The notes beneath the pieces were generated by a model. That model was not told the origin of the DNA and searched no databases. It worked only from the letters and a program-made list of their open reading frames with translations. The translations under genes and the position numbers were made by a program. Shown here in pieces: positions 31,530 through 45,933 of a DNA stretch of 64,000 bases. The stretch lies in contig MHXZ01000073.1 of the NCBI GenBank assembly GCA_001825665.1, positions 1 to 64,000 of the forward strand. Reading direction: 5' to 3'. This DNA is from Planctomycetes bacterium GWF2_41_51. Its GTDB lineage: Bacteria; Planctomycetota; Phycisphaerae; Sedimentisphaerales; UBA12454. The first letter of the stretch is position 1; the number at the start of each line of letters is the position of its first letter.

Positions 31530-32144
31530 TTATTTTATTCTTTGTGCTATAGCCGTTATCGCTGCTGCCATCTTTTCTGCTTTAGTACCTTTTGCCGGCA
31601 TTGCTTTCTCGATTGCCGCCTGAACAATTTCCATCTGTTCATCATTAAGGAAAAATACCAGCGTATTCAAAAACACATCAGAGCCGCGACCGTCAGGAAG
31701 CGGTAAAGACTTCACCGTTATATCTCTCAATTTTTCAATTACCTGTTTACTGTCCGCCAATTTTTCCGCCAATTCTTTTGAGCCGTATTTCTCTGATAAT
31801 TTTTTTATCAGTTCGATTTTCAATCTCAAATCGTCTTTCCCTCCCAGCCGGTTCAGCGTCGAAAGCAAAATTCTGACTCCGTCATCGTCAACATCCCACA
31901 CTGCGCAATCAGCAAAAGTTTCGCCCAATTGTTTCAATGCTTCCGCCCGATGATGACCGTTTATAATTTGATAGAACCCTTTTTTCTCCGGATGCGCCCG
32001 CACAATCAGCGGCTCATAATTCCCCGTCTGTTTAATATGATTCTTTAGCTTTTCAAAATTTACTCCGCTCATCCTGTTCGGATTCTCCGGATGAGCCAAA
32101 AGCTTCTCCATCTCGATTTTTAATACTGTATTTTTTTTGCTCAT
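31530..32144 (-). CDS. ParB-like nuclease-domain protein
   Basis: 204 residues. The N-terminal 100 residues are the ParB/Sulfiredoxin fold: LLAHPENPNRM, a LIVRAHPE segment and the motif INGHHRAEALKQLG. In phages such proteins act near packaging or DNA-modification genes, and the CTP-binding GHHRxEA pattern is kept. No KorB-type HTH is obvious, though LAEKLADSKQVIEKL could be a short one. A peptide SLPLPDGRGSDV near residue 146 is encoded by a hairpin repeat inserted in frame. It is probably co-transcribed with the TerS-like gene. Confidence 0.75.
   Translation of the reverse strand: MSKKNTVLKIEMEKLLAHPENPNRMSGVNFEKLKNHIKQTGNYEPLIVRAHPEKKGFYQIINGHHRAEALKQLGETFADCAVWDVDDDGVRILLSTLNRLGGKDDLRLKIELIKKLSEKYGSKELAEKLADSKQVIEKLRDITVKSLPLPDGRGSDVFLNTLVFFLNDEQMEIVQAAIEKAMPAKGTKAEKMAAAITAIAQRIK
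31681..31703. repeat. GAGCCGCGAC hairpin element, copy inside the ParB-like gene
   Basis: GAGCCGCGAC followed by CGTCAGGAAGCGG. It folds as CCGC/GCGG, a GA/AA internal pair, CC/GG and a GTCA loop. It is read in frame on the minus strand as PLPDGRGSD. A related copy is at 45620. Confidence 0.7.
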
Positions 32145-45276: not shown

Positions 45277-45933
45277 GTTTCAAAGCCGTTGACAATTTAC
45301 ATATCACAAAAAATTCTACCGGCCGTGATACCGGCAATCAATATCTCGATTACACCGACGAAACCGACGTTGACAATCACACTGGCGTCCAATACGGCCG
45401 CGTTGCCGTTGGCTGTGACGAATTTGGCGGTCTTTCTGATTATGATGAAAACGGAATTATTAATTTTCTTGATTATCGCTTTTTATCGCAAAACTGGAAC
45501 GAGGATGAAACAGACTACAGCATTGATGATCACAATGATATTGATATTTATGATTAGACATATTTCGCCGCCGAATGGCTTTGGCAGGATGAAACCGAAA
45601 TGCTGATGATGTCTTATCCGAGCCGCGACAGTGATGGAGCGGGTAATTCAAAAATTTTATGATTTAATTCCTTCCACAACGATTACTGCTCGTCAGAACG
45701 AACTTGAAAAACTTAAAAATGAAAAATATTTCTCTTCAAAATGTTCACTGAGTTTAGCACCCGCACCTGTGGCGGGTGAATTTTGTGATTCGTATGAATC
45801 GCAAATACTTGATATTGAAATGTTAGTTGATTGGCTGGACGATCTTTGGCAGACCGATGAAGAAATTAGAAACTCAATGACAGAAGAAGAATTTTTGAAT
45901 TTCAGAAATTCAATCAAAGAATCCGCCAAATAA
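45277..45933 (+). pseudogene. Decayed dockerin-like C-terminal fragment
   Basis: One frame reads DYDENGIINFLDYRFLSQNW and then DDHNDIDIYD, stop (TAG near 45556), TYFAAEWLW: two dockerin-type calcium loops broken by a nonsense codon. About 65 bases on, the reading frame moves to that of the 45631 ORF (KFYDLIPSTT ... LVDWLDDLWQTDEEIRNS). The frame break coincides with a GAGCCGCGAC hairpin element at 45620, which may have caused it. No matching N-terminal part, signal peptide or start was found upstream. Confidence 0.65.
45620..45642. repeat. GAGCCGCGAC hairpin element, copy in the pseudogene
   Basis: GAGCCGCGAC then AGTGATGGAGCGG. It folds as CCGC/GCGG, tandem GA/GA, CA/TG and a GTGA loop. Compared with the copy at 31681, the inner pair changes from CC/GG to CA/TG with pairing kept. 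Confidence 0.65.

Follow-up and report, generated by a model that had tools for sequence, protein, structure and literature searches.

The DNA analysed here, a window of 64,000 nucleotides from Planctomycetes bacterium GWF2_41_51, contains two short GC-rich hairpins, one inside a ParB-like gene and the other at a broken reading frame, which raises the question of whether they are copies of a mobile repeat and, if so, which enzyme could have moved it. Their sequences and hairpin folds were as an earlier note on this DNA had described them, and the same fold was obtained with DNA and RNA parameters (Table 1). Copy 1 has a GA/AA internal step and an extra G31683-T31704 wobble, and the internal step of copy 2 is GA/GA. 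A structural scan of the window returned these two copies and no others, and none in the reversed sequence. A Rfam search of the window found RNase P only, the hairpin matching no curated family. With one mismatch allowed, the 10-mer occurs three times in the 64-kb window against 2.2 expected, which is chance level, so that the case for a real repeat rests on genome counts.

Table 1. Features of the window and of the class-3 tnpA gene of the same genome
Feature	Position	Strand	Basis or remark
REP-like element copy 1 (GAGCCGCGACCGTCAGGAAGCGG)	31681..31703	+	pattern match, folding
Copy 1 foot CAGA	31679-31682	+	foot and pair statistics
Copy 1 stem CCGC/GCGG	31684-31687/31700-31703	+	
Copy 1 inner pairs CC/GG	31690-31691/31696-31697	+	
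Copy 1 loop GTCA	31692-31695	+	
ParB_N-domain gene carrying copy 1 in frame	31530..32144	-	PF02195 E=6.5e-7; orthologue alignment
REP-like element copy 2 (GAGCCGCGACAGTGATGGAGCGG)	45620..45642	+	pattern match, folding, structural scan
Copy 2 foot CCGA	45618-45621	+	
Copy 2 stem CCGC/GCGG	45623-45626/45639-45642	+	
Copy 2 inner pairs CA/TG	45629-45630/45635-45636	+	
Copy 2 loop GTGA	45631-45634	+	
TAG stop breaking the reading frame that runs into copy 2	45555-45557	+	three-frame translation
Class-3 tnpA (L319)	C109:12739-13194		168 aa, no stop; PF01797 E=4.6e-8

Collecting all copies, as had been suggested, revealed a dispersed family. The 4.83-Mb source genome holds nine exact copies of GAGCCGCGAC-N9-GCGG and none of the reversed-pattern control, and the 23-nt consensus of the element reads GAG-CCGC-GA-CN-GTNA-N'G-RA-GCGG. 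GAGCCGCGACNGTNANGRAGCGG was present in 24 of 98 relatives, at 1 to 36 copies each, with a control of 0 in all. The scan of named genomes listed, among its matches, Planctomycetota (Phycisphaerae, Planctomycetia), Acidobacteriota (Bryobacterales, Solibacter), Gammaproteobacteria (Legionella, Nevskia), Chloroflexota (Anaerolineae, Ardenticatenia) and a Verrucomicrobiia bacterium. Twenty-four of these genomes have 2 to 371 copies apiece, the highest number being that of Legionella shakespearei, and the control was 0 in all 24. The element is thus dispersed and reaches high copy number, as expected of a class 3 REP, the nine copies of the window's genome being a moderate number. The chance-level count of the 10-mer inside the window is what would suggest a fortuitous similarity between two GC-rich words, a reading refuted by the nine genomic copies with their empty control and by hundreds more in other genomes, and to which we give practically no credit.

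Copies also form 25 inverted pairs, either head-to-head or tail-to-tail and 8-60 bp apart, in a BIME-like arrangement, and mixed pairs of CCGC and CCCC elements occur. Open reading frames of at least 900 nt hold 31% of the copies vs 77% of random positions, an extragenic bias. In one relative (G014), tandem arrays carry a copy every ~201-203 bp (C1:3806632-3809322 and 3823262-3823861). The element is also found in 70 stretches of predicted viral contigs (L187-L256), some with up to eight copies, although misbinning of host or prophage DNA may account for these stretches; a scan of viral contigs for class 3 genes found no relative.

As the copies are ungapped, covariation was assessed by direct pair counts. 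The free inner pair is a standard one in 265 of the 271 copies of the strict pattern (C-G 207, A-T 28, T-A 14, G-C 10, T-G 6; a single G-T lies outside the 265), and with the stem letters left free 370 of 378 copies are paired at the inner position, with six pair types; since copies are not fully independent, p-values for pairing and for the strand bias given below are indicative. The third outer pair of these 378 copies can be G-C, C-G or A-T, and the outer stem changes in a paired manner among relatives (CCGC/GCGG, CCCC/GGGG, CCAC/GTGG, CACC/GGTG). The internal step is GA/GA in 364 copies and GA/AA in 14. The pairing of the element is therefore selected, as the earlier note had proposed, and a random spread of the word without paired changes is ruled out. 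The GNRA-like loop described in the same note did not hold, because any base can stand third in the loop (A 124, G 122, C 91, T 41 in the 378 copies), and the loop is better written GNNA. A bias of the loop base by reading frame was apparent only, and was discarded because the demand for open frames produces it.

When the decayed end pair is excluded, there are 27 G-T changes and only 3 A-C changes (24 loci vs 3), which suggests that the GAG strand is the one that folds and that its complement is immaterial. In the 271 strict-pattern copies position -2 is C in 83% and position +1 is T in 68%, which points to a CnGA foot, with the stem closed by a G-T pair. The commonest feet in the 378 copies are CCGA (138), CAGA (96), CGGA (35) and CTGA (34), with ACGA (59) as a departure, so that the element has the 5' CnGA foot of class 3 REPs. 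Between RNA and single-stranded DNA as the folded molecule, the link to a transposase, described below, favours DNA.

That a RAYT or TnpA-like gene might be linked to the element had been raised at the outset, and a search for one eventually succeeded. A first Y1 HMM, built from the best PF01797 matches, placed almost no transposase close to elements, as if the RAYT test had failed, but low-scoring PF01797 matches changed this picture: genes scoring high against PF01797 do not lie near elements, whereas weak matches do. In Legionella shakespearei, for instance, a Y1 gene sits between element dimers. The subfamily alignment (A1) shows invariant HxH, W-T, Tyr and Gln, and motifs, length, taxa and CnGA foot all agree with the HUH-Y1 protein TnpA_Y1 class 3 (PMC6006769). 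When this subfamily was searched in 49 element-bearing genomes and strong and weaker matches were scored for an element within 500 bp, 17 of the 20 strong class-3 genes had one, at 0-142 bp, often on both sides and in different phyla (15 of 18 without L347 and L348, two loci first noticed through their nearness to elements). Other Y1 genes from overlapping genomes had an element at that distance in one case out of 28 (Fisher p=4e-9), and element density predicts 2.8%. The gene that has the element on its flanks in many genomes, and a sister hairpin there in the source genome, encodes an HUH-Y1 TnpA. A single-sequence AlphaFold model of one such protein (L147) is of low confidence (mean pLDDT 64.5), and a fold search with it ranked the IS608, ISDra2 and IS200 transposases at the top with E only ~1e-3; a PDB sequence search with alignment A1 gave no match.

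The thresholds applied gave no class-3 gene in 17 of the 49 element-bearing genomes, nor in the near-complete G003 and G014, and G003, a near-complete relative with copies, has no PF01797 match; we assume loss of the gene or incomplete assembly. Among 392 Planctomycetota genomes not picked for the element, 44 encode a class-3 gene (E<=1e-30), and the hairpin stands beside only some of these genes, which implies that the class uses several hairpin types.

The source genome has a class-3 gene of its own, whose product carries H94-x-H96, W131-T132, Y152 and Q157, all invariant in A1, and so possesses the HUH, W[TA] and Tyr-x4-Gln motifs. Both flanks of this gene carry the sister hairpin GAGCCCTGACCGTAAGGGAGGGG, which has the CCCT/GGGG form and not the CCGC form of the window. 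The CCGC-type copies of this genome may have been made by the present class-3 gene or by one since lost. A GAGCCCTGAGCGTAAGCGCCGGG-like hairpin type surrounds the same gene (L319 1300-1450) and abuts one CCGC copy (L001 flank). Class-3 genes of two relatives (L320, L321) are flanked by a further repeat, which reads TEPGAKATGAKFGAKATG in the frame of the gene. This suggests that every TnpA lineage has its own hairpin.

We propose, with a probability of about 0.88, that the hairpin is a REP-like element, short, mobile and non-autonomous, which a class-3 HUH-tyrosine TnpA binds, cuts and rejoins in single-stranded form, or once did, the gene of this enzyme being itself flanked by such hairpins (REPtron). 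The data show that the element is dispersed, covaries, has a strand bias and is tightly linked to the gene, and that the protein has conserved HxH and Tyr-x4-Gln and a weak fold match to IS200/IS605 TnpA. For IS608 and for TnpA_REP of Escherichia coli, hairpin binding, cutting at a place set by the foot and joining through the tyrosine are established. In the element studied here the GAG strand would fold when single-stranded, its CnGA(G) foot lying 5' of a GC stem of 4-5 bp that leads through a tandem G-A step to two inner pairs closed by a GNNA loop. By analogy, TnpA would bind this hairpin on exposed lagging-strand DNA, the foot would position the cut and the catalytic tyrosine would join the ends. 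Hairpins would in this way spread in trans, and the tnpA gene would move together with the hairpins on its flanks. Since several genomes have copies with no class-3 gene detected, many of the copies are probably relics.

The strand bias does not by itself speak for DNA, as an excess of G-T on the GAG strand fits RNA too. The hairpin could then be mainly an RNA element, such as an mRNA stabiliser, a terminator-like structure or a protein-binding site, kept by its function and with a merely historical link to a transposase, and strong RNA folding (up to z=-4.5) and the position of most copies outside long ORFs agree with this. However, copies occur on both strands and within ORFs too, the loop is not restricted to GNRA, copies cluster at class-3 TnpA genes, and relatives have anything from 0 to 36 of them, unlike what a conserved regulator would show; we thus hold an RNA role to be improbable. 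We are still more sceptical of the view that CCGC-type copies are moved by another enzyme (another Y1 protein, a group II intron or a recombinase), class-3 genes being only frequent landing places. The genomes with copies and no detectable class-3 gene would fit it, and so would four named genomes (77, 102, 6 and 30 copies) without any PF01797 match, but it leaves unexplained the close, often two-sided flanking of class-3 genes across phyla when other Y1 genes are almost never flanked, and none of ten weaker, other-type relatives of class 3 is.

The class-3 REPtron that we favour is ordinary in kind, being a REP element, and unusual in class. TnpA_Y1 class 3 was described as having NHVH, W[TA] and Y-4x-Q motifs, a length of about 178 aa, REPtron-like flanks with "atypical secondary structures" and a 5' CnGA foot; it was found in Planctomycetes, Acidobacteria and Proteobacteria, with about 600 copies in Solibacter usitatus, and was set apart as perhaps bridging insertion sequences and REP systems (Quentin et al. 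2018, PMC6006769). Few members are treated in the main text of that study, where class 3 has neither a consensus nor evidence of covariation or strand, so this kind of element was known but barely described. To it we add its occurrence in Chloroflexota, Verrucomicrobiota and Legionella, and the units that lie in frame within host genes. The little-studied class thereby gains a defined consensus, strand and partner, and is shown to occur in Legionella, which can be cultured, as well as in many uncultured bacteria. Exact-word literature searches on the hairpin found nothing relevant among the papers listed.

Like GTAG REPs and their class-2 RAYTs (E. coli, Pseudomonas REPINs), the elements are short, mostly extragenic hairpins forming inverted dimers and heterodimers and flanking an HUH-Y1 gene. 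They differ in having a CnGA foot and no GTAG/GTRG, and a Y motif of the Y-4x-Q type (YVKNGQG) where class-2 RAYTs have Y---NP; class-3 TnpA scores 24-27 bits against the NCBIfam RAYT model NF047646, whose cut-off is 80, and is thus no class-2 RAYT. CGTC REPs and Rickettsia palindromic elements are also short palindromes, some of them in frame in genes, but these have a CGTC (TGTC, CCTC) end, stems of 8-9 bp starting with A+T and no transposase association (Di Nocera et al. 2013, PMC3733652), whereas our elements, with a CnGA foot, a 4-5 bp stem plus internal step and a linked transposase, fall outside that family. With the ends of IS200/IS605 elements (IS608, ISDra2), which are subterminal hairpins recognised as single-stranded DNA, they share an HUH-Y1 enzyme and the fold match; unlike those ends, the hairpins are dispersed and far outnumber the gene.

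An unexpected lead came from whole Y1 tnpA units lying in frame in host genes. Most of these units belong to class 3, and several have hairpins on their flanks. The interrupted genes are valS (L348, L351, L413, L420), alaS (L354, L355), leuS (L371), the BREX-2 gene pglX (L410) and an MmeI-like gene (L368), and one valS-embedded unit comes from a Phycisphaerales genome. L368 and L371 are more distantly related, and neither they nor L420 have CCGC hairpins. Domain searches of very long open frames placed TnpA surrounded by ValRS (L351), LeuRS (L371) and AlaRS (L354, L355), and within BREX-2 PglX (L410) and the MmeI-like enzyme (L368). In four genomes the sole valS above the valS cut-off is the interrupted one, with the unit at an identical site, and this site is empty in the source genome and in G014. 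Such a position makes the transposase easy to express and test. Read codon by codon, every hairpin copy is open in at least 4 of 6 frames, which would make in-frame insertion easier. Class-3 REPtrons might thus persist like inteins, the hairpin adding a harmless peptide in at least 4 of 6 frames and tnpA-plus-hairpin units lodging in the indispensable valS, alaS and leuS, where they would be kept and expressed as a foreign domain of a working enzyme, an idea that we consider evenly balanced between right and wrong. If confirmed in cells, in-frame units would represent a novel means by which a mobile element ensures its expression and avoids being purged. No description of in-frame tnpA units in tRNA-synthetase or methylase genes was found in the open-access literature searched.

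Both window copies are probably old insertions, copy 1 being tolerated in a variable linker of the ParB-like protein and copy 2 lying at a broken frame. Copy 1 is antisense to the ParB_N gene, where it encodes PLPDGRGS. The earlier note had read PLPDGRGSD as added to the protein, which is borne out insofar as the stretch lies within the gene and most orthologues of the genus are ~2 net residues shorter there; the alignment of ParB-like gene orthologues yielded no clean empty site. At the DNA level, five of six close orthologues are 6 bp shorter at the copy 1 site, and the sixth and nearest (L378) has equal length and keeps a CCGC/GCGG hairpin with a different inner sequence, for which reason the insertion may predate the split. 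As for copy 2, claimed to sit at a frame break in a pseudogene, the break is confirmed by an in-frame TAG, and no family match bears out the pseudogene. An ORF of 100 codons (window 45631-45933) starts within copy 2, and its start codon may thus come from the element. Some 120 bp away from this copy there is a second palindrome, CCCGCACCTGTGGCGGG (window 45760-45776), which also adjoins another element copy on contig C88 (L006 1478-1494), and is perhaps another repeat family.
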